Shown: positions 27,395 through 49,072 of the stretch, in pieces
Numbering within the stretch: the stretch's first letter is position 1
How the letters are laid out: the number at the start of each line of letters is the position of its first letter
Assembly (NCBI GenBank): GCA_001418405.1
Contig: LIQL01000244.1
Coordinates: 1-64,000 of the forward strand
Direction: 5' to 3'
Length of the DNA: 64,000 nucleotides
DNA from: Streptomyces diastatochromogenes
GTDB lineage: Bacteria; Actinomycetota; Actinomycetes; Streptomycetales; Streptomycetaceae
Position numbers and translations under genes: made by a program
Notes under the pieces: model-generated
The model's input: the letters and a program-made list of their open reading frames with translations, nothing else
Database searches by the model: none
Told to the model about the DNA's origin: nothing

Positions 27395-28288
27395 TCACGC
27401 TGCGGCGTAGCTGAGGCGGAACAGGTCTTGGGCGCGCTCCAGGTCCCGCTCGGTGCGCAGTTGGACTTCGAGGTTGCCGGTGCCGTGGTGGCCGACCTTT
27501 GTCACGTTGCGGGTGAAGCCGGGGATGAGTTCGACGTTCTTCGGGTTGGCCTTGAGGTAGATGAGGAGTTTGGTCTGCTGCGGCGGGGTGACGCAGGCGA
27601 AGTTGCACAGTCGCTGGTAGGCGACGTACTGCTTGCGCTGCACCCGCGTGACACCGTCCCCAACACCGAGCAGCACCTCGTCGACCGCCTCGGCCAGCTC
27701 CGCAAGCGCTCCGCCCTGCTGGCGAACACCCCGCTGCGCGGACTCCCGGCGACGGCTCCGCTTGGCCGTGCCCGAGAGCCCCGTGACGGAAGCCACGGTC
27801 TCCAAGCCGATGTGGTCGTCGCCGTAGTACCGGTAGCGGACCAGGTCGATGCTGCGCCGGTGCTCGCGCACCGCGTGGGCGTCGTAGCGGGTGAAGTCGC
27901 CGGCAATGCAGATCAGCCGCGGTGCGCTCCACAGGATCTGGGACGCGGCCGTCGCTCCCAGTCGCTCGCGGACCAGGGCGCGGAAGGCGTCCCGGTGTGC
28001 CAGGAGCCAGGAGAGGTAGTACAGGCCCTGGTTGATCACTCCGGAGTCAGTGCCCCGCTTGTACTCGACGACGACGGGCGATCCGTTCTCGTCGATACCC
28101 AGCGAGTCGATGCGCCCGCCGTCGCCATCGCAGCCGATGACGTACTCGCTGGCCAGAATCGTCACGCCCAGCATCGTGTCCATGTGTGCCTCGACGAGGC
28201 CCTGCACATCCGCCTCAACCTCGGCAAGACGCGAAACAACCTCGACGACGCCACCATCCGTTGCGTGGAACAGCTTCAGGCCCGACAC
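27395..28288 (-). CDS. NucS-like nuclease with DUF5655 domain
   Basis: About 297 residues. The N-terminal part is a PD-(D/E)XK nuclease-like domain: MDTMLGVTILASEYVIG, then GGRIDSLGIDENGSPVVVEY with the D...E-x-K catalytic signature, then NQGLYYLSWLLAHR. The C-terminus is DUF5655 (YLKANPKNVELIPGFTRNVT, VGHHGTGNLEVQLRT, DLERAQDLFRLSY). Such proteins are predicted endonucleases, possibly in defence or repair. GTG 28288 (SGLKLF) matches the usual family start; the frame extends to 28456 without similarity. Substrate unknown. Confidence 0.82.
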   Translation of the reverse strand: MSGLKLFHATDGGVVEVVSRLAEVEADVQGLVEAHMDTMLGVTILASEYVIGCDGDGGRIDSLGIDENGSPVVVEYKRGTDSGVINQGLYYLSWLLAHRDAFRALVRERLGATAASQILWSAPRLICIAGDFTRYDAHAVREHRRSIDLVRYRYYGDDHIGLETVASVTGLSGTAKRSRRRESAQRGVRQQGGALAELAEAVDEVLLGVGDGVTRVQRKQYVAYQRLCNFACVTPPQQTKLLIYLKANPKNVELIPGFTRNVTKVGHHGTGNLEVQLRTERDLERAQDLFRLSYAAA

Positions 28289-28493
28289 CTCCCCCTCATC
28301 GACTGGACCGGTGACAACACCGAAGAGAGGCAGATCTATTTCCACGTAGAGGTCCCGGCCACGAAGACCTCGTGAGACGCTGGCGATACGGAACCCCACG
28401 AGCCGCCTACATCCCGTGAGTTCGAGACAGCCTCTCATCCCACATACGTCCCACAAGACTCATGACGCCCTGCCAGATATCTAAGACGGCGTC

Positions 28494-29287
28494 TCATTTG
28501 GTGAGTCTGCGGTAGCAGATGAGGCTGCAGGCGATGGCGGTGAAGGCGAGGAAGTGTTCGGCCTTGCGCTCGTAGCGGCGGTGCAGGCGGCGGCAGCCGG
28601 CGAGCCAGGACATGGTGCGCTCGATCGTCCAGCGGTGCCGGCCCAGTCGGGTGGAGGACTCGATGCCTCTGCGGGCGATGCGGTGCCGGATGCCTCGTCC
28701 GCGGAGCCATCGGCGCAGGTCGTTGTAGTCGTACCCCTTGTCCGCATGGAGCTTGGCGGGCCGTCGTCGGCGTGGCCCGCGTCGCGAGCGGATCGGTGGG
28801 ATGCCCCGGACGAGCGGCTTGAGTGCCTGACTGTCGTGAAGGTTCGCGCCGGAGATCCCGATGGACAGGGGTAAACCGGTCCGTTCCGTAATCAAGTGGA
28901 TCTTCGATCCCTTCTTGCCCCGGTCGACAGGATTCGGACCTGTCAGCTCCCCCCTTTCAGAGCCCGCATGTTCACCGAGTCGATGGCGCAGCGCGACCAG
29001 TCCAGGTCCCCGCGCGATCCCAGTTCGTCGAGGATGACGCGGTGGAGCTTGGCCCAGACCCGGGCGGTGGTCCACTCGGTGAAGCGCCGGTGGGCGGTCG
29101 GCCCTGACGGGCCGAAGACCGGCGGCAACTGCCGCCAGGTGCAGCCCGTCGTGGCCACGAAGATGATCGCCGCGAGGACCTCACGGTCACCGTACCGGCG
29201 TCGCCCCCCGCCCTGCGGCCGTGACGGAGCGGGTGGCACCACCCGCAGGAACAGGTCGGACAGCTCGTCCGGCACCAAGCGTTCCAC
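28494..29287 (-). CDS. IS5-family transposase, two frames joined by slippage
   Basis: Frame A (GTG 29287 to the stop near 28943) encodes ERLVPDELSDLFLRVVPP, GDREVLAAIIFVATTGCTWR and HRRFTEWTTARVW, the IS5 N-terminal half with the first catalytic Asp in CAIDS. Frame B continues with RGKKGSKIHLITERTGLPLS, LHADKGYDYNDLRRWL (second Asp) and WTIERTMSWLAGCRRLHRRY (Glu), down to 28494. The frames overlap at a slippery A-and-G run, so a fused DDE transposase is made by ribosomal frameshifting. All three catalytic residues are visible, so the element may be active. Confidence 0.85.
28949..28957 (-). other. Slippery heptamer-type site for transposase frameshift
   Basis: On the coding strand AAAGGGGGG lies at the junction of the two transposase frames. 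A one-base backward slip joins RALK/ERG reading frames without passing the stop of frame A, the usual arrangement in IS5-type elements with two ORFs. Confidence 0.7.
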
Positions 29288-29337
29288 GATCAGCACGAGC
29301 ACCAGACTACCGACGAGCCCAAATGAGACGACTTCTA

Positions 29338-30446
29338 AGAGGACGTTCATGCTATTGACGTGCGGGTTTGACCGTTTTATTGCCCGCCTGAAATCGTCTG
29401 GTTGAGGCTGCTCATGCCGAATGCGTCGGGGTGATGTCGGCTGTCAGGCTCGCGTTTCATCATGATTCGCCCAGTAGATCCTGTCCGGTTCGAACTCGCG
29501 AAGAGCGCCCACCTCAGGTAACTCCGACGAGTGATACCTCACCGCGACTCCCTGCCGCATCAGTGATGTTGTGACGACAAAGCCACCCCGCAAGTCCTAT
29601 CCGAGCGACCTGTCCGACGCCCGCTGGGCCCTGATGGAGCCAACACTGACCGCCTGGCGCACTGAGCGACAGAAGACCTCGCTCAACCTCGGCGGCAAGG
29701 TCACTGACCTGCGAGAAGTCCTCAATGCGATCCTCTACGTCAACCGGACTGGGATCCCCTAGCGTTACCTACCGCATGACCTTCCGCCGCACACCACGGT
29801 CTTCTCCTACTTCAGTGCCTGGACCGCCGACGGGACCATCGAGAAGCTCGGCGTCCACCTACATCGGATCGTCCGAGAGCGGGAAGGACGCACTGCCGAG
29901 CCAACTGCCTGCGTCATCGATGCCCAGAGCGTGAAAACCGCTCCCAGTGTGCCCACCAGCACCCAAGGCACCGACGCCGGCAAGAAAATCGTGGGCCGCA
30001 AACGCAGCATCGTCACAGACACCCTCGGCCTGTTACTGCTGGTCATGGTCACCGCGGCCAGCGTCTCCGACAACCAGGCAGGCAAACAACTCCTCACCCA
30101 AGTCGCCGCCAACCACCCCACCATCACCAAGGCATGGGCCGACACCGGATACAAGACCCAGGCCATCGAACACGGCGCCGCCCTCGGCATCGACGTCGAG
30201 GTCGTGCCGCGAAACACACAGGTCAAAGGCTTCTCAGTGCTACCGCGGCGCTGGGTGGTGGAGCGAAGCTTCGGCTGGCTCATGATGCACCGCCGCCTGG
30301 CCCGAGACTACGAAACCAAACCCCAACACTCCGAGAGCATGATCCGCCTGGCCATGCTCTCCAACCTCGCCAAACGAGCAACCGGCGAAACGACCACAAC
30401 CTGGCACAACCCATGAACTAACACGCACCTGAACAGGACGTCCTCT
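29338..30446. mobile_element. IS5-type insertion sequence (element 2), inactivated
   Basis: AGAGGACGT at 29338-29346 is mirrored at 30438-30446, with further partial matching inward (GTGCGGGTT against GTGCGTGTT). About 1.1 kb. The transposase frame inside is broken by an amber codon. The left end overlaps the right flank of element 1, so one element inserted at the very edge of the other. No clean target duplication could be assigned. Confidence 0.6.
29571..30416 (+). pseudogene. IS5-type transposase with amber mutation
   Basis: One frame of 281 codons encodes a complete DDE transposase: YPSDLSDARWALMEPTL, EVLNAILYVNRTGIP, then TAG at 29760, then RYLPHDLPPHTTVFSYFSAW, CVIDAQSVKT (Asp), AWADTGYKTQAIEHGAALGI (Asp) and VVERSFGWLMMHRRLARDYE (Glu). 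In relatives the stop position is Trp (GIPWRYLPHD), so a single TGG-to-TAG change inactivated it. The rest of the gene is intact, pointing to recent inactivation. Confidence 0.88.
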
Positions 30447-31633: not shown

Positions 31634-32140
31634 CCTGGCCGACAGTTCCGGCTGCCCTCACTGTTCCCCACCTGGCGCCCCTAGTTCGCGCCGGGCAGAG
31701 GTTCGAGAACAGCGTCCGAGTCGAGCTTGAGGAGGACAGTCGCAGCCTGACCATGCGTCACCCAATCCACATCTATTGACAATTGCTCCTCGCCGAGCGT
31801 CAGGCGGATTGGGTCGTGACGGCGGATGAGCTGGATCGCTGCAGCGCCGGCGCACGGACCTGTAGCGCTCGGCGAAGGCCGATGTCGTGCGGATGCCGGA
31901 CCCCGGCGAGTCTTCGTCACTGCGCCCTGCGGGGACCGGCCTCCCGAAGGTGCCGGCCGCCCCTTGCTGAATCCCCCGGGATCACCGACGCCACGTGAAT
32001 TTCGATAATCTTGCGTTCTGTCGATAAACGTCTAGACTGAAGGAACGCGGTCCGTGAGGCCGTTGCCGCTCAGACGAAGCCGTCGCCCCGCATCGTCGGT
32101 GGTGCAGGGCGATGTCGGACAAGGAACGGGAGTGTGCAGG
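31634..32140. other. Intergenic, possible small minus-strand frame; promoter of catabolic operon
   Basis: A minus-strand frame at 31681-31920 (79 codons; IQLIRRHDPIRLTLGEEQLS) is weakly protein-like but has no family or ribosome binding site. The right half holds the direct-repeat operator at 32000 and the operon promoter. Confidence 0.35.
32000..32030. promoter_or_regulatory. Direct-repeat operator in front of catabolic operon
   Basis: TCGATAAT and, 20 bases later, TCGATAAACG form a direct repeat of CGWTAA. The 31-base site aligns with the site at 36039 in front of the GntR gene at 21 of 31 positions, with the repeats best conserved. It is probably the binding site of that GntR protein. Confidence 0.6.
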
Positions 32141-32992
32141 ATGAGTGATCCGCGCCGGGTGATGTGGAACGGAACCGTTCGGTCACTGTCGCTGGCCGAC
32201 CAGTTGCTAGCAGCGCAGACCGCCGGCTGTGAAGCCCTTGCAATCACCCCGTCCGACTACAACAGGTGGCTCGGAACGGGCATCAGCACGCGCGAGATGC
32301 GCGGCATGGCGGCCGATGCCGGGGTCGGTCTCACCCATCTCGATCCTCTCGTTCGATGGGTAGATGCCTGGGAACCGCATCTGCCGGGCGGCGAGGAGTT
32401 CCCCGTCGAGACCGTCGCCTTCGACGAAGACGACTTCTTCCGGATGGCCGCCGCACTCGGCGTCGAGTCGTTCACGGCTTGGGCGGGTTTCCCGCCCGGG
32501 AGGTACAGCCGTGAGCAACTCGTTGACGCCTTCGGAGGTCTGTGCCGCCGGGCCGCCATGGAGGGACTGCGTTGTGACCTGGAGTTCATTCCGGTGTTCG
32601 GCATCCCCGACTTGCGCAGCGCTTGGGACGTCGTCCGGAGTGCGGACGCGGCCAACAGCGGCATCGTCTTCGATCTGTGGCACTACATGAGGGGCGGGCG
32701 CGACGATGCCCTGCTGGCGACGATTCCCGGTGAGCGCATCACCGGAGTCCAACTGTGCGACGCCGACGCGGAGGTCCCGGAAGGGATGTCCCTCGCCTAC
32801 GACGGCCTCAACAACCGCAAGGCACCGGGCGAAGGCGACTTCCCGGTCTCGGAGATCGTCGACGTCCTGCGTGCTATAGGCGGGCTGAATAGCGTTGGCC
32901 TTGAGGTGTTCTCCCCTGCCTTCGACGCGATGTCAGCCGAGGAGGTTGGTGTGAGGACGCGGGCCGCTCTGGACGCCGTCCTCGCAACCTGA
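32141..32992 (+). CDS. Sugar phosphate isomerase/epimerase-like TIM barrel
   Basis: 283 residues of the xylose-isomerase-like/AP-endonuclease-2 TIM-barrel family: LADQLLAAQTAGCEALAITP, VGLTHLDPL, LGVESFTAWAGFPPG, LRCDLEFIPVFGIPDL, NSGIVFDLWHYMRGG (metal-ligand strand) and GLEVFSPAFDAM at the end. Family members isomerise or dehydrate small hydroxy-acids and sugars. It is the first gene of an operon with a ring-cleavage-type dioxygenase and an FAH-like hydrolase. Exact substrate unknown. ATG 32141 follows a weak purine stretch. Confidence 0.85.
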   Translation: MSDPRRVMWNGTVRSLSLADQLLAAQTAGCEALAITPSDYNRWLGTGISTREMRGMAADAGVGLTHLDPLVRWVDAWEPHLPGGEEFPVETVAFDEDDFFRMAAALGVESFTAWAGFPPGRYSREQLVDAFGGLCRRAAMEGLRCDLEFIPVFGIPDLRSAWDVVRSADAANSGIVFDLWHYMRGGRDDALLATIPGERITGVQLCDADAEVPEGMSLAYDGLNNRKAPGEGDFPVSEIVDVLRAIGGLNSVGLEVFSPAFDAMSAEEVGVRTRAALDAVLAT

Positions 32993-33048
32993 CTCTCCAG
33001 CGCGCGGTGTGCGGGTACCCACCGCCCGGTGACACGGAAAGGAGCGAT

Positions 33049-33438
33049 ATGAGCACGACGCAGAAACCGTCCCCACCCCAGGCGGCATGGGACTCGGGCC
33101 TGCTGGGGACGTGGTCTCTGCACAGCATCCGCGAGCTGAACGCCGACGGCACCCTCCTGGCCGAGCCGTATGGGCAACAGCCGCCGGGGAGGCTGTACTA
33201 CGGACCGGCGCACCAGGTGGCAGTGGTGATCCCCGGCCACGCGGACGCACCCGCGGTGGCGTACATCGGCGAATACCAAGCCGATCGCGATGGCGTCCTG
33301 CGGCACGTCGTCCGCGTCGGATTGCCGCCCTTCACCGAGGACCAGGTCCGGTGGGCGCGGCTCGACGGCGACTGCCTGACCCTGTCCACCGACCACGAGG
33401 GGCGGAGCCGCATCGAGTTGCAGTGGACGCGCGCCTGA
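33049..33438 (+). CDS. Lipocalin-like domain protein
   Basis: 129 residues with a lipocalin-like (PF13924 type) pattern: LLGTWSLHSIRELNADGTLL, GRLYYGPAHQVAVVI, AYIGEYQADRDGVLRHVV and a final SRIELQWTR. These small beta barrels may bind hydrophobic molecules; in catabolic operons some act as isomerase-like accessory proteins. AAAGGAGCGAT precedes the ATG. Second gene of the operon, 56 bases after the first. Confidence 0.8.
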   Translation: MSTTQKPSPPQAAWDSGLLGTWSLHSIRELNADGTLLAEPYGQQPPGRLYYGPAHQVAVVIPGHADAPAVAYIGEYQADRDGVLRHVVRVGLPPFTEDQVRWARLDGDCLTLSTDHEGRSRIELQWTRA

Positions 33439-33551
33439 GGCACGGCCCGCTCAGAACCGGCCCTCTCGATCAACGACACATGTGGCAGTTGGTACTTGGG
33501 CAACCGTTGGCAACCCGCGGACGTGTGCCCCCTCATCAGAAGGAGAACGCG

Positions 33552-34484
33552 ATGGCCCTGCACCGCCTGACCTCGATCACCCTCGGCGTCCCGGACGTCG
33601 AGGCCGCGGCCGGCTACTACGAGGAATTCGGTCTGACACCGGTGGGCGACGGGCCGGTTCGCCGCTTCGCCACCCAGGAGGGCGGCGAGCAGTTGAAGCT
33701 CGCCCACTCCGCACAGCGTCGGCTTGTCGAACTCGGCGTCGGCGTGGACGACCAGGACGACCTGGACCGCGTGGCCGCCAGCCTGTCGAAGCTGGACGTG
33801 CCTGTGCAGCGGGAGGCGACGTCCCTGCGAGTCGTCGACCCGAACTCCCACCTGACGGTGATCCTGGAGATCGCCTCGCACCTGGAGCAGACCCCGACCG
33901 AGCAGGTGCCGTACAACGGTCCCGGCCGCCCCTCCCGCCCCAACGGCCGCGCCCCCGGAGTGGAGCGGACGCACCGGGTGCGGCCGCGCAAGCTCGGTCA
34001 CGTGGTGATCGGCTCGCGTGACCAGGACGCGAGCCAGCGCTTCTTCACCGAGGGCCTCGGCTTCAAGGCCTCCGACCACGTGCCCAGTCTGGCCAGCTTC
34101 CTGCGCTGTTCCACCGACCACCACAACATCCTCGTCCAGAGGGCTCCGGTGGACTTCCTCCATCACACCGCGTGGGAGGTGGACGACGTGGACGAGGTCG
34201 GCCGCGGCGCGACGGCCATGCTGGAGGAACACCCCGAGCGGCATGTCTGGGGACTGGGCCGGCACCACATCGGGTCCAACTTCTTCTGGTATCTCAAGGA
34301 CCCGGCAGGCAACTTCACCGAGTACTACAGCGACCTCGACTGCATCGTCGACGAGCAGGTGTGGAAGCCCTCCGTCGTCGACGGAGCCCGCGGGGTCTAC
34401 AGCTGGGGCCCGCCGCTCCCGCCGTCCTTCATCAAGCCGGAGGACCTCGCCGCTCTGATGACCGGCACGCACAGCCCCCGTTGA
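33552..34484 (+). CDS. Two-domain VOC protein, extradiol dioxygenase type
   Basis: 310 residues with two vicinal-oxygen-chelate modules: a degenerate first module (about 5-118) and an active second one (about 145-275). The second carries the 2-His-1-carboxylate metal site: H150 in KLGHVVIG, H205 in FLHHTAWEV and E257 in GNFTEYYSD. This is the layout of type I extradiol ring-cleaving dioxygenases, which open catechol-like rings with Fe(II). AGAAGGAG precedes the ATG. The FAH-family gene directly downstream fits processing of the ring-cleavage product. Substrate not deducible. Confidence 0.88.
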   Translation: MALHRLTSITLGVPDVEAAAGYYEEFGLTPVGDGPVRRFATQEGGEQLKLAHSAQRRLVELGVGVDDQDDLDRVAASLSKLDVPVQREATSLRVVDPNSHLTVILEIASHLEQTPTEQVPYNGPGRPSRPNGRAPGVERTHRVRPRKLGHVVIGSRDQDASQRFFTEGLGFKASDHVPSLASFLRCSTDHHNILVQRAPVDFLHHTAWEVDDVDEVGRGATAMLEEHPERHVWGLGRHHIGSNFFWYLKDPAGNFTEYYSDLDCIVDEQVWKPSVVDGARGVYSWGPPLPPSFIKPEDLAALMTGTHSPR

Positions 34485-34516
34485 CGTCCACGTCACGCAC
34501 ACCCACAGGAGCAGTC

Positions 34517-35380
34517 ATGCGCATGGGCAGGATCGACGGCAGGCTCGCACTGCTGCACAACGACCGAGCATTGGACGTAGAGAGGGCGAGCAACGGCAAG
34601 TTCGCGGCCGAGCCCGACCGTGTCTTCGAGCGGTGGGACGAGTTCGCCCAGTGGGGCGAGGGCCGCTCGCTGGACGATGCCGTACCCTTCTCGCCCGCGC
34701 AGGTCGGCGCCCCAGTCCTGCGACCGTCCCAGGTCTTCGCCATCGGCCTCAACTACCAAGCGCACGTCGCCGAGGCCGGCGTAGCGCCGAAGATCACCTC
34801 ACCGGCGGTGTTCACCAAGTTCGTCACCAGCATCACCGGCCCGTACGACACCGTCATGCTGCCCAGCGACAGGGTCGACTGGGAGGTCGAACTGGTCGCG
34901 GTCATCGGGCGGCCGGGCCACCGGGTGCGGGAGAAGGACGGGTGGAGCCACGTGGCGGGCCTGACCGTGGGCCAGGACCTGTCCGAACGGACGGTACAAC
35001 TGGCCGGACCGGTTCCGCAGTTCTCCCTCGGCAAGTCCTACCCGGGATTCAGTCCGATCGGCCCCTCGCTCGTGAGCGTCGACGAGTTCGCCGACCCCGA
35101 CGACCTGGCACTCTCCTGTGCCCTGGACGGCGAGGTCCTTCAGGACGGCAGGACCAAGGATCTGATCTTCTCCGTGCCCGAGCTCGTCGCACGGCTCTCC
35201 GCGGTCGTCCCGCTCGTTCCCGGGGACCTCATCTTCACCGGCACCCCGTCCGGGGTGGGCATGGGCCGGGACCCGGAGCGCTACCTGCAGCCGGGCGGCA
35301 CCCTGGTCAGCACTGTCGAGGGCATCGGCTCACTGACCAACCAGCTGGTGGCGGAATCGAGCGCGCACGGCGCTGCCTGA
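34517..35380 (+). CDS. Fumarylacetoacetate hydrolase family protein
   Basis: 287 residues: a short N-terminal domain, then the FAH fold from about residue 70 (VFAIGLNYQAHVAEAG with H83). Metal ligands E123 and E125 lie in DWEVELVAVIG and D154 in GLTVGQDLSER; SPIGPSLVSV and FTGTPSGVGMG are typical. FAH-family enzymes cleave C-C bonds or isomerise beta-keto-acid products of aromatic ring cleavage. It follows the dioxygenase gene by 32 bases with CAGGAGCAG before ATG 34517. Confidence 0.92.
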   Translation: MRMGRIDGRLALLHNDRALDVERASNGKFAAEPDRVFERWDEFAQWGEGRSLDDAVPFSPAQVGAPVLRPSQVFAIGLNYQAHVAEAGVAPKITSPAVFTKFVTSITGPYDTVMLPSDRVDWEVELVAVIGRPGHRVREKDGWSHVAGLTVGQDLSERTVQLAGPVPQFSLGKSYPGFSPIGPSLVSVDEFADPDDLALSCALDGEVLQDGRTKDLIFSVPELVARLSAVVPLVPGDLIFTGTPSGVGMGRDPERYLQPGGTLVSTVEGIGSLTNQLVAESSAHGAA

Positions 35381-35458
35381 CCGGGCCTCAGCCCCTCATC
35401 AACGACACGAGAGCACAGTTCGAGAAGCCGAATTCGTTCGGCGGAGAGGAAGACAGGT

Positions 35459-35860
35459 ATGAGCAACCAGACACGCGACGTGGTGAACGAACTCCTCAAG
35501 CGCATCGGAGAAGGCGACGTCCCGGCCGTGGTGGAGCTGTTCGCGGACGACGCCCACTGGGAGATCCCCGGGGACCCGGGGATCGTGCCCTGGGTGGGCC
35601 GCCGCACGGTCGCCGGTATCCCGGACTTCTTCCGGACGATGAACAGGCTCACCATCCGCGAGCTCTTCGAGATCGAGCGCGTTGTCGTCGATGGCCCCAA
35701 TGCGGTGCTGATCGGACGGGCACGGGTCGTGGTGCGCTCCACGGGCAAGGTGATCGACACGCCGTTCGCGGTGGACATCGTCGTGAACCCCGAGGGTCGC
35801 ATCAGCCGCTACTACATGTTCGAAGACTCCTGGGGCGTCGCCCGGGCAGTGCGGCCTTGA
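35459..35860 (+). CDS. NTF2-like (SnoaL-type) protein
   Basis: 133 residues with the NTF2-like cone fold: VNELLKRIGEGDVPAVVELF, ADDAHWEIPGDPGIVPWVG, FFRTMNRLTIREL and RISRYYMFEDSWGVARA. Members are isomerases, dehydratases or binding proteins for small cyclic substrates. GGAGAGGAAGACAGG precedes the ATG. Last gene of the catabolic operon; it may act on the sugar-isomerase or dioxygenase product (inference). Confidence 0.85.
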   Translation: MSNQTRDVVNELLKRIGEGDVPAVVELFADDAHWEIPGDPGIVPWVGRRTVAGIPDFFRTMNRLTIRELFEIERVVVDGPNAVLIGRARVVVRSTGKVIDTPFAVDIVVNPEGRISRYYMFEDSWGVARAVRP

Positions 35861-36038
35861 GCAAGGCGCGCGCCGCCCGGCATCGACGAAGCCCCTGTTC
35901 GACGTACTGGTACGGACGGATGCGGTACCGGGCCCACTCCAGGAAGCCCCCTCTTTGATCAGCGCCCAGGGCCGGAGTCGGCGCTCCGACGAACGTCGTG
36001 AGCTACGACACCGGCCCTGGGCGTTACAGAAGCCTAAA

Positions 36039-36069
36039 TATCGTTAATTGTAAATTATTGCGTTAAACG
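36039..36069. promoter_or_regulatory. Direct-repeat operator in front of GntR gene
   Basis: TCGTTAATTG and, 20 bases later, GCGTTAAACG form a direct repeat of CGWTAA in AT-rich DNA ending 14 bases before the GntR start. It matches the site at 32000, so the regulator probably controls itself and the operon. Confidence 0.6.
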
Positions 36070-36083
36070 GCTAGGGTGTTCCG

Positions 36084-36785
36084 GTGGTCAAGGGGAATTC
36101 AACGCGTACTGAAGAGGTCTTCGAGGGGATCCGCAGCGACCTGCTCAACGGGGACCTCGCTCCGGGGCAGCGGCTCAAGTTGATCGCCCTCGCGGAGCGA
36201 TTCGGCGTGAGCATGTCGGTAGTTCGTGAGGCACTCACCCGGCTCGCCGAGCAGGGGCTCGTCGTGTCGAACCCGCAGCGCGGGTTCAGCGTGATGCCCC
36301 TGTCGGTCGATGATCTGTCCGACCTGACGCAGACGCGGGTGCAGTTGGAGTCGCTCGCGCTGCGGCAGGCGATCGCCCTGGGCGGTCTGGAATGGGAGTC
36401 CGCGGTCGTGGCGGCGCACCACACGCTTGAGCGCACTGCGGTCGACGGGGCCGACGGGCGGCTGAACGAAGACTGGCCCGCCGTCCACAAGACCTTCCAT
36501 CAGGTGCTGCTTTCGGGTGCGCAGAGCCCGCGCTTGGAGGGGATCGTCAACTCCCTGCGCGACAACGCCGAGCTCTACCGACGCTGGTACTGGGCCTTGA
36601 CCGAAGATCAGGTACGCGACCTGGTCGCTGAGCACCGTCAACTGCGGGATCTCGCCCTGGCCCGGGACGCGGATGCCGCGGTGGCCGCCCTGGCCGAGCA
36701 CATCGGCCGGGCGCCTCGTAAGCTCATCGCCTACGCCCGCGAACACGACCTGGAAGACCCCACGCGCAGGTCAACTGGGGCTTGA
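36084..36785 (+). CDS. GntR family regulator (FCD/FadR type)
   Basis: 233 residues: a winged helix at about 10-75 (VFEGIRSDLLNGDLAPGQRL, ALAERFGVSMSVVREALTRL) and an FCD ligand domain at about 85-220 (LTQTRVQLESLALRQAI, DNAELYRRWYW, LVAEHRQLRDLALARDADAA, IGRAPRKLIAYA). FadR-type regulators respond to organic-acid metabolites. It lies at the end of the putative ring-cleavage operon and shares its operator. Start GTG or ATG 36084. Confidence 0.92.
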   Translation: MVKGNSTRTEEVFEGIRSDLLNGDLAPGQRLKLIALAERFGVSMSVVREALTRLAEQGLVVSNPQRGFSVMPLSVDDLSDLTQTRVQLESLALRQAIALGGLEWESAVVAAHHTLERTAVDGADGRLNEDWPAVHKTFHQVLLSGAQSPRLEGIVNSLRDNAELYRRWYWALTEDQVRDLVAEHRQLRDLALARDADAAVAALAEHIGRAPRKLIAYAREHDLEDPTRRSTGA

Positions 36786-47959: not shown

Positions 47960-49072
47960 ATGACGCGCCCCACCCGTCCGGCCTTCACTGTCGACCGCCG
48001 ACACCGCTGGCGACTGCGTACGCCGGACGGCGACCCGTTCCTGTCGGTGGGCATCGTCCATGCCGACGACACCAACCTGCGCTATCCGCACAATCTCGCC
48101 ATCTACCAGTCCCGGTACGGGGGTTCGCGACAGCGGTGGCTGCAGGAGGGCCTCGTTCGCGACCTGAAGGACTGGGGATTCAACACCCTGGGCTGGACGT
48201 CGGAGTACGTCAGCGGCACGGGTCTCGCCGTGGAGGGCGTTCCCATCGATCTGGGCCATTCCGAGGGCCTGTCGCCCGAGGAACTGGCCGGCGCCGGCAT
48301 CCCCTACACACTGTCGCTGCGTGCGGTCGAGATCGAGTACTGGAACGGCTTCCCCGCCTATCGCGACCCCCGCGAGCCCGCGTTCGCCCAGTGGTGCGAT
48401 CACCTCGCCAGGACGGTGTGCCGCCCGGACGACCCGAACCTTCTGGGCTACTTCCTCGTCGACGCACCCTGTTGGAACCGCCATCCCGCCGGCGCAGGGT
48501 ATCCGGCCTCCGAACTCCCGGCGATCGCCGAGGCCTACTACCGCATCACCACCGAGGCGATCCGACGACACGACCCGAACCACCTGATCCTGGGCGACCG
48601 TTACGGCACCCGGGCTGGCGTGCCCGAGGTCGTGCTCGACGCGATGGCTCCCCACGTCGACGTGTTGTCGGTGCAGACCTTTCCGGGACCGGACCCCGCG
48701 AGCCTGGACGCGGCCCTGGAACAGATCGGCCGCTGGCACGAGCGGACGAACCGCCCCGTCCTGATCGCCGACACCGGCAACTGGTGCCCCACGGTGATGA
48801 GCCCCGAGCGCACGGGGTCCGCGCGCGACCAGCGCGAACGCGGTGCCGGGTACACCGCTTCCGCGGAGGCGTTCGCGGCGCGCCCATGGTGCCTGGGCTG
48901 GCACTGGTGCGGCTGGCTGGAGAACCCGCAACGCGGCTTCGGACTCAAGGACCCGTGGGACGAGCCCTACAGGGATCTCACCGACCAAGTCACCGAGACC
49001 AACCGCCACCTGCAGGAACGGGCCAATCACGACGAGAGCGACCGGACCGCTCCTTCCACACCCCTCCGATGA
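47960..49072 (+). CDS. Glycoside-hydrolase-like (agarase-type) protein
   Basis: 370 residues resembling a TIM-barrel glycosidase of the agarase group: PFLSVGIVHADDTNLRY, LKDWGFNTLGWTSEYV, LLGYFLVDAPCW, ITTEAIRRHDPNHLILGDRY, PHVDVLSVQTF, RPVLIADTG and WCLGWHWCGWLENPQRGFGL. There is no signal peptide, so the enzyme acts inside the cell. At the two catalytic positions where agarases have Glu this protein shows Asp (FLVDAP and LIADTG). Substrate is therefore uncertain. ATG 47960 follows GAGGGG at 11 bases. Confidence 0.75.
   Translation: MTRPTRPAFTVDRRHRWRLRTPDGDPFLSVGIVHADDTNLRYPHNLAIYQSRYGGSRQRWLQEGLVRDLKDWGFNTLGWTSEYVSGTGLAVEGVPIDLGHSEGLSPEELAGAGIPYTLSLRAVEIEYWNGFPAYRDPREPAFAQWCDHLARTVCRPDDPNLLGYFLVDAPCWNRHPAGAGYPASELPAIAEAYYRITTEAIRRHDPNHLILGDRYGTRAGVPEVVLDAMAPHVDVLSVQTFPGPDPASLDAALEQIGRWHERTNRPVLIADTGNWCPTVMSPERTGSARDQRERGAGYTASAEAFAARPWCLGWHWCGWLENPQRGFGLKDPWDEPYRDLTDQVTETNRHLQERANHDESDRTAPSTPLR

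Follow-up and report, generated by a model that had tools for sequence, protein, structure and literature searches.

An operon in which an extradiol dioxygenase gene stands beside that of an FAH-family hydrolase has been characterised in Pseudomonas mandelii 7HK4. According to the available text of that report, the HcdABC system (hcdABC) is directed at 3-(2,4-dihydroxyphenyl)propionate and is composed of a flavin hydroxylase, an extradiol dioxygenase, and an FAH-family hydrolase (PMC6222606). Ring opening converts 3-(2,3,5-trihydroxyphenyl)propionate into a 2,4-dihydroxy-6-oxo diacid, which disappears when HcdC is present; with the cleavage products of simple catechols, HcdC caused no loss of colour (PMC6222606). 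Here we describe a comparable arrangement in a 64,000-nucleotide stretch of Streptomyces diastatochromogenes DNA (GCA_001418405.1, contig LIQL01000244.1, positions 1-64,000 of the forward strand), the whole of which is called the window. We consider it fairly probable that the arrangement is a locally regulated ring-cleavage operon, in which a dioxygenase of the VOC family opens the ring, an FAH-family protein splits the product, and a GntR-FCD regulator represses both the operon and itself.

Like hcdABC, the window has a dioxygenase gene beside that of an FAH-family hydrolase, and the enzymes of the hcd pair act on a trihydroxyphenyl ring and on the product of its opening; the two systems are compared by description. 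Unlike the window, hcdABC includes its own flavin hydroxylase and consists of three genes without a TIM-barrel, lipocalin, or SnoaL member, and the main text of PMC6222606 has no instance of the word "gntr". The ipp cluster of Rhodococcus sp. D-6, for 2-isopropylphenol, contains a 211-amino-acid dioxygenase, IppB, which is reported to open a hydroquinone (PMC12442392). As described there, it resembles many relatives of the window's operon in joining an extradiol dioxygenase, an FAH-domain protein, and an acetoacetyl-CoA-synthetase-like gene in one actinobacterial cluster. It differs in that IppB would be a one-domain protein, judging from its length, and in its two-component monooxygenase; "gntr" is likewise absent from the main text of PMC12442392.

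In the fde system (naringenin, Herbaspirillum) and the ifc system (isoflavone, Variovorax), the A-ring is hydroxylated and the resorcinol- or phloroglucinol-type ring is then dioxygenated by an enzyme of the putative-glyoxalase type (PMC11069340). Both differ from the window, as far as their descriptions allow comparison, in having flavonoid substrates and their own monooxygenases, with an alpha/beta hydrolase in ifc, and the main text of PMC11069340 does not contain the word "fumarylacetoacetate". Two other routes were rejected on the basis of the available texts. Riboflavin/lumichrome catabolism ends in acetoacetate and pyruvate, but its last steps are those of a pyrone hydrolase, a cupin, and an aldolase (PMC12746152). 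The dioxygenase of 4-hydroxypyridine catabolism belongs to the amidohydrolase family (PMC7356986).

The six genes of the window's system are all on the forward strand, head to tail. The first (32141-32992) encodes a 283-amino-acid TIM-barrel protein like isomerases or lyases (xylose isomerase-like, AP_endonuc_2; PF01261, E-value 5.6e-19). It is followed by genes for a lipocalin-like protein of 129 amino acids (33049-33438; Lipocalin_5, PF13924, E-value 7.4e-9), the putative two-domain type I extradiol dioxygenase of 310 amino acids (33552-34484; PF00903), and the FAH-family protein of 287 amino acids (34517-35380; PF01557, E-value 3.2e-62). A SnoaL/NTF2-like protein of 133 amino acids (35459-35860; PF12680, E-value 1.2e-12; 7epn, E-value 1.4e-21) completes the operon. 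The GntR-FCD regulator of 233 amino acids (36084-36785; PF00392, E-value 6.7e-18; PF07729, E-value 6.6e-18) comes last and has a GTG start. Intergenic gaps are, in gene order, 56, 113, 32, 78, and 223 bases. All six frames are intact, and ribosome-binding-like sequences were read by eye before the five operon genes. The Pfam matches and frame coordinates thus bear out the co-directional TIM-barrel, lipocalin-like, two-domain dioxygenase, FAH, and NTF2-like genes that an earlier note on this DNA had listed.

The dioxygenase has the H150-H205-E257 triad named in that note, and none of these residues varies among the 85 aligned sequences, of which the window's is one. H191, H238, and Y247 are likewise invariant in all 85. 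When the protein is aligned with 1han, the triad falls on the Fe(II) ligands of BphC, and the other three residues fall on H195, H241, and Y250, its acid/base residues of the second shell. The catechol 2,3-dioxygenase and HpaD profiles match both halves of the protein; the Pfam Glyoxalase match covers only residues 147-257. Scores are below the NCBIfam cut-offs for catechol 2,3-dioxygenase (70.6 against 320.2 bits), HpaD (63 against 321.4), BphC (56.2 against 366.45), and HsaC (40.7 against 450). Since the protein lies below all four equivalog cut-offs, homology gives no substrate class. It appears to be a two-domain type I extradiol dioxygenase with a 2-His-1-Glu Fe(II) site in its C-terminal repeat, and ring cleavage is predicted.

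The FAH-family protein has an FAA_hydrolase domain with 210.4 bits against a gathering score of 23.9. It matches 6v77, which carries the label "Putative HpcE" and no more than that label, with an E-value of 2.4e-91. It is below the equivalog cut-offs for the HpaG C-terminal domain (146 against 276.4 bits) and didehydro-deoxyrhamnonate hydrolase (187.5 against 500). Its gene begins after the 32-base gap that follows the dioxygenase gene, so that the extradiol dioxygenase adjoins an FAH-family hydrolase as in Hcd.

Relatives of this pair are common. Of 295 genomes in the genus, 31, among them the source genome, have the VOC family at an E-value of at most 1e-50. Genome contigs yielded 323 VOC-family loci, and the analysis was made on the best 80 of the 323. 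Gene presence in these was scored by tblastn at 1e-20, with contig ends cutting some loci, and gene families were named by Pfam via representatives. Genes outside the operon were called by a crude GC-frame script that sets some starts wrongly; the Kutzneria operator discussed below, for example, falls inside the called gntR.

An FAH gene was present in 77 of the 80 loci and a GntR gene in 42. Monooxygenases of the FAD type were present in 50 and of the acyl-CoA-dehydrogenase-like type in 16, one or the other in 62, with a flavin reductase in eight. Beta-keto-acid CoA enzymes comprised an acetoacetate-CoA-ligase-like protein (40 loci), a CoA-transferase (three), and BKACE (one), with at least one of them in 44. 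Other partners were another CoA ligase (eight), an amidohydrolase (26), a different lipocalin-like protein (five), and a different SnoaL-like protein (four). The window's own TIM-barrel, lipocalin-like, and SnoaL-like families were each found in none of the 80. Acetoacetate-CoA ligase, 3-oxoacid CoA-transferase, and BKACE all use beta-keto acids, the cassette CoA-transferase being assumed to be of the 3-oxoacid type. The occurrence of three different enzymes for beta-keto acids suggests that the FAH-family protein releases such an acid.

The VOC gene is also present in the seven actinobacterial plasmid records that were examined. Six of them have an FAH gene and a monooxygenase-type gene near it, four of these six have GntR as well, and one of the seven has a BKACE gene. 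Plasmid pF1D18A of S. clavuligerus has the VOC gene with no FAH, GntR, or monooxygenase gene within 10 kb. Judged by these gene neighbourhoods, the dioxygenase and FAH-family genes, often with GntR, are the core of a widespread, little-studied actinobacterial cassette. No named pathway or regulator for it was found in the open-licence PMC literature, which is weak evidence of absence; a paper search by PDB code gave no structure paper among the matches listed. The claim in the earlier note that the gene combination fits no known pathway does not hold for this pair, which is the core of a widespread cassette and has a counterpart in the HcdABC-type operon, characterised as described in the available text (PMC6222606). 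The gene set agrees with the chemistry known from there, in which a trihydroxybenzene-type ring undergoes meta-cleavage and an FAH-family enzyme then hydrolyses the product.

The regulator and its operators are the strongest part of the proposal and form a compact two-site regulon that is well supported by sequence. Operator 1 (31996-32027, forward strand) contains TCGATAA repeats 19 bp apart. It overlaps the operon promoter, for which a -35-like TTGCGT (32011-32016) and a -10-like TAGACT (32033-32038) were read by eye. Operator 2 (36035-36067, forward strand) contains TCGTTAA and GCGTTAA, also 19 bp apart, and overlaps a gntR promoter, likewise read by eye, with a -35-like TTGTAA (36048-36053) and a -10-like TAGGGT (36072-36077). 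A sigma-70 scan listed neither promoter. The gntR transcript is probably leaderless at the GTG, since the -10-like hexamer ends six bases upstream of it.

The CGWTAA direct repeat that the earlier note placed before the operon and the gntR gene was recovered at both sites. CGWTAA-N13-CGWTAA lies at 32003-32027 and 36042-36066. The window has these two occurrences, where shuffled sequences have 0.01 on average and none of 100 shuffles reached two. These are the only exact matches in the 9.1-Mb genome (937 contigs), and a reversed-pattern control gave none; the exact pattern was itself derived from the two sites. A longer form of the repeat, with up to two mismatches allowed, was found at six more places, all with two mismatches, against three for the control. 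The identity between the sites was overstated at 21 of 31 positions: over the offsets tried, the best count with the repeats in register was 20 of 31. Part of this similarity comes from the shared promoter -10 (TAGACT/TAGGGT), and hence not all of it belongs to the operator.

An operator model was built by an expectation-maximisation motif search on 43 gntR promoter regions from related loci, with the window's region, the 44th, left out. The motif, AAAATaTCGAtATTtTgTTGACaTgTCGAt, is a TCGA-centred palindrome with a -35 box and a second TCGA 19 bases past the first. With promoter columns kept, site 1 ranks first in the window at 20.0 bits. This score was reached in none of 60 simulated windows but by three of 300 column-permuted models. 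With promoter columns masked, a choice made after the unmasked result for site 2 was known, site 1 (26.9 bits) and site 2 (25.0 bits) rank first and second of 127,942 window positions, and the next position elsewhere scores 10.4.

Across the 80 loci, an operator copy of at least 20 bits was found in 40 of the 42 with this GntR and in three of the 38 where GntR was not found; most of the GntR loci counted here also contributed to the 43 regions used for training. Twenty column-permuted models gave copies in a mean of 0.1 of the 80 loci. When the author's gene caller was applied to 85 loci at a lower threshold, the counts were 39 of 43 with GntR and eight of 42 without. The motif was not found in GntR loci L081 and L091, and it was found in L033, L034, and L080 where GntR was not. 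In these last three no GntR of this family was seen in the available DNA, and their regulator may be encoded elsewhere.

In 37 of 43 homologous regions, GntR and the next gene are transcribed divergently, nearly always with the motif between them. The window differs in having GntR downstream of the operon and an operator copy at each promoter, as would be expected of a GntR protein that represses both. That it acts as a repressor is suggested by the overlap of the operators with the promoters. In the GntR tree the window's protein groups with those of L032 and L044, with a Shimodaira-Hasegawa-like approximate likelihood ratio test (SH-aLRT) value of 92. By this grouping and by its operator it appears to belong to the regulators of actinobacterial FAH-VOC cassettes, site 2 being matched only with promoter columns masked, and binding to the sites is predicted. 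Together, the model trained without the window and the distribution over loci support the earlier note in seeing here an operon of catabolic type that shares a pair of matched operators with the neighbouring GntR gene.

Further operator copies of 28.9-40.4 bits occur in related loci, at L038:11307, L044:14119, L109:1718, L061:1707, and three times in L110. Four of them precede, respectively, a CoA-transferase, a monooxygenase-type, an alpha/beta-hydrolase-type, and a gntR gene. The regulon elsewhere would thus span several promoters.

The window's dioxygenase and FAH-family protein are sister to those of Kutzneria sp. CA-103260 (L032), with SH-aLRT values of 99 and 98. Identity to the Kutzneria proteins is 83% for the dioxygenase, 74% for the FAH-family protein, and 59% for GntR; the dioxygenase is at most 68% identical to those of other streptomycetes among the matches listed. 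In the dioxygenase tree the window falls in a six-member clade with the VOC gene before the FAH gene; the other five members all have a flavin monooxygenase and four have a CoA ligase. The Kutzneria locus has the same operator as the window. Unlike the window, it has an FAD monooxygenase gene directly before the VOC gene, where the window has the TIM-barrel and lipocalin-like genes, and a luciferase-like monooxygenase gene after the FAH gene, and it has no match to the window's TIM-barrel, lipocalin-like, or SnoaL-like families. The window copy thus appears to be a cassette core of known kind that is new in its accessory genes and in the missing hydroxylase. The earlier note had raised the possibility of a new ring-cleavage route; its core is now seen to be of a known kind, and the TIM-barrel, lipocalin, and SnoaL part and the missing monooxygenase remain unexplained by known systems.

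Transposase pieces (DDE_Tnp_1, DUF4096, IS4/5 type) lie just upstream of the operon in separate frames at 28494-29350 (reverse strand) and 29949-30416 (forward strand), as would fit a region with a history of mobility. Beside them, at 27395-28438 on the reverse strand, is a strong match to the PADLOC candidate defence model PDC-S18 (E-value 3.3e-133), which also matches DUF5655 and, weakly, the C-terminal part of NucS.

These features could also mean that the VOC, FAH, and GntR genes are a remnant or a recruited fragment, transferred horizontally without their monooxygenase and CoA enzyme to a place beside unrelated TIM-barrel, lipocalin, and SnoaL genes and working, if at all, with enzymes encoded elsewhere. 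The closeness of the dioxygenase to Kutzneria rather than to other streptomycetes and the transposase pieces would fit such a transfer, and nothing in the 9.1-Mb genome is closely related to the monooxygenases or CoA ligase of the cassette. We nevertheless regard it as unlikely. The frames are intact in all six genes, the five operon genes have their ribosome-binding-like sequences, and the exact operators have been retained at the two promoters and occur at no other place in the genome. This last point suggests selection on a unit that includes the TIM-barrel gene, which follows site 1.

The TIM-barrel protein aligns with Lmo2234 (2g0w) and with the N-terminal half of QuiC (5hmq), and keeps E148, D178, H181, Q204, and E254. 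In QuiC, the positions aligned with E148, D178, Q204, and E254 are metal ligands. QuiC is also its best NCBIfam match, with 51.7 bits, far under the cut-off of 1200. The likeness to 5hmq is limited to an E-value of 6.8e-11 and to the N-terminal domain, whose E/D/H/Q/E residues are kept; the fused C-terminal dioxygenase-like half of QuiC is lacking. From the aligned metal-site residues, a dehydratase or isomerase acting on a cyclic ketone is conceivable. Four sequence matches to solved structures were found at an E-value of at most 0.01, of which Lmo2234 is the nearest and gives no function. A single-sequence structure prediction had a pLDDT (predicted local distance difference test) of 45.2, too poor for use.

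This family is rare. In the genus it was found only in the source genome, out of 295, at an E-value of at most 1e-40. In the class it was found in 12 of 394 genomes at an E-value of at most 1e-25, the source included, and the others had 29-41% identity. No VOC or FAH gene was found at an E-value of at most 1e-4 in 14 TIM-barrel neighbourhoods (11 from class genomes and three from plasmids). In seven loci of other actinomycetes with TIM-barrel relatives (L159-L165), a zinc alcohol dehydrogenase gene is present in all seven and a short-chain dehydrogenase/reductase gene in five, one member of each having been named by Pfam. Aldehyde dehydrogenase genes, again with one member named by Pfam, also lie near such relatives, a polyol-like context.

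The lipocalin-like protein was found in two of the 295 genus genomes at an E-value of at most 1e-10, the source included. A model from a four-row alignment is a predicted beta-barrel with a pLDDT of 80. In a search with this model, lipocalin-like chains with Z-scores of 9.9-10.7 were among the best matches, designed beta barrels were tied with them at 10.8, and no function was indicated. No sequence match to a solved structure was found at an E-value of at most 1. A different lipocalin-like gene lies directly before the FAH, VOC, and monooxygenase genes in streptomycete loci L043, L050, L078, and L094, and its product has 28-31% identity to the window's protein in the three aligned. Lipocalin-like proteins would thus have entered the cassette more than once or diverged far.

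The position of the TIM-barrel and lipocalin-like genes where the sister locus keeps its monooxygenase leaves room for an aromatisation in place of the monooxygenase step. A QuiC- or IolE-like metal-dependent TIM-barrel enzyme, with the lipocalin-like and SnoaL-like proteins, would dehydrate a non-aromatic cyclic polyol or ketone to a polyhydroxybenzene for the VOC and FAH-family enzymes. The residues shared with QuiC, QuiC as best profile match, and the polyol-like context of the relatives all agree with it. Against this stand the silence of Lmo2234 as to function and the absence of the TIM-barrel gene from the 80 VOC loci and of VOC and FAH genes from the 14 TIM-barrel neighbourhoods. A sugar taken off the substrate could instead be what the TIM-barrel enzyme uses. 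We hold it to be quite unlikely. Its fuller form, an oxygen-sparing bypass of hydroxylation, is a shade more doubtful still: the operon would make its own phenol via the TIM-barrel and lipocalin/SnoaL proteins, and the VOC and FAH-family enzymes would open it at once under a dedicated GntR repressor.

Alternatively, the TIM-barrel protein and a small beta-barrel protein could strip a sugar (from an O- or C-glycoside) or a side chain from a flavonoid-like polyphenol, leaving the freed ring to the VOC and FAH-family enzymes. Such pairs of a TIM-barrel and a small beta-protein occur among C-deglycosylases. A-ring dioxygenation by FdeC, a putative-glyoxalase relative, is a precedent for the second part as described in the available text (PMC11069340). 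No chain named as a C-deglycosylase is present among the four structure matches of the TIM-barrel protein, and the lipocalin-like protein has no structure matches at an E-value of at most 1. A sugar-uptake family was not named among 26 genes scanned of the 64 crudely called in the window. We rate this possibility as very unlikely.

Elsewhere in the window, a 370-amino-acid frame at 47960-49072 (forward strand, crude call) has no Pfam or PADLOC match, and scanning the window for Rfam families and tRNA genes gave no hits.

In the mechanism that we favour, the VOC protein would be an Fe(II) type I extradiol dioxygenase acting on a di- or trihydroxylated ring with a further oxygen function, of the resorcinol, phloroglucinol, or hydroxyquinol type. 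Ring opening would yield a 2,4,6-trioxo (1,3-diketone) acid. The FAH-family enzyme would hydrolyse this to pyruvate, or a homologue, and a second acid, in many relatives probably a beta-keto acid. For its substrate to be a 1,3-diketone, the ring would have to bear an additional oxygen function, as trihydroxybenzenes do; HcdABC is such a case (PMC6222606). The GntR-FCD protein would bind the TCGNTAA-like repeats, 19 bp apart, over the -35 region and spacer of each promoter, repress the operon and itself, and be released by a pathway intermediate. The TIM-barrel, lipocalin-like, and SnoaL-like proteins would prepare or tautomerise the substrate or product. With two of their genes in the place of the monooxygenase gene, the substrate may already be polyhydroxylated, or a monooxygenase may be borrowed from elsewhere.

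Several observations weigh against this mechanism. The flavin monooxygenase found within Hcd- and Fde-type clusters has no counterpart in the window or the next 12 kb, and the cassette monooxygenase and CoA enzyme are likewise unmatched there. Their best relatives in the whole genome are 40% (FAD monooxygenase), 36% (acyl-CoA-dehydrogenase-like), and 32% (CoA ligase) identical. Ten of the 80 loci have neither a monooxygenase nor a CoA enzyme within the available DNA. Site 2 scores 5.1 bits with promoter columns kept (7.7 in a shifted frame), so that the case for it is carried by the operator columns and the direct repeat. HcdC's own products were not detected, according to the available text (PMC6222606). 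As IppB is reported to open a hydroquinone, an FAH gene with an acetoacetyl-CoA-synthetase-like gene is no proof of a resorcinol-type ring (PMC12442392). The DNA itself shows the gene content, the catalytic residues, the operator pair, the conservation of the operator alongside this GntR, and the context of the cassette. The ring type, products, repression, inducer, and roles of the three accessory proteins proposed here are predictions built on them.

For the cassette as a whole, these results give a testable definition of operator and regulon, on which a screen for inducers, and through them for substrates, can be based. The window copy lacks the usual hydroxylase and has TIM-barrel and lipocalin partners; it is a good case in which to look for ring cleavage that is fed otherwise than by aromatic hydroxylation.

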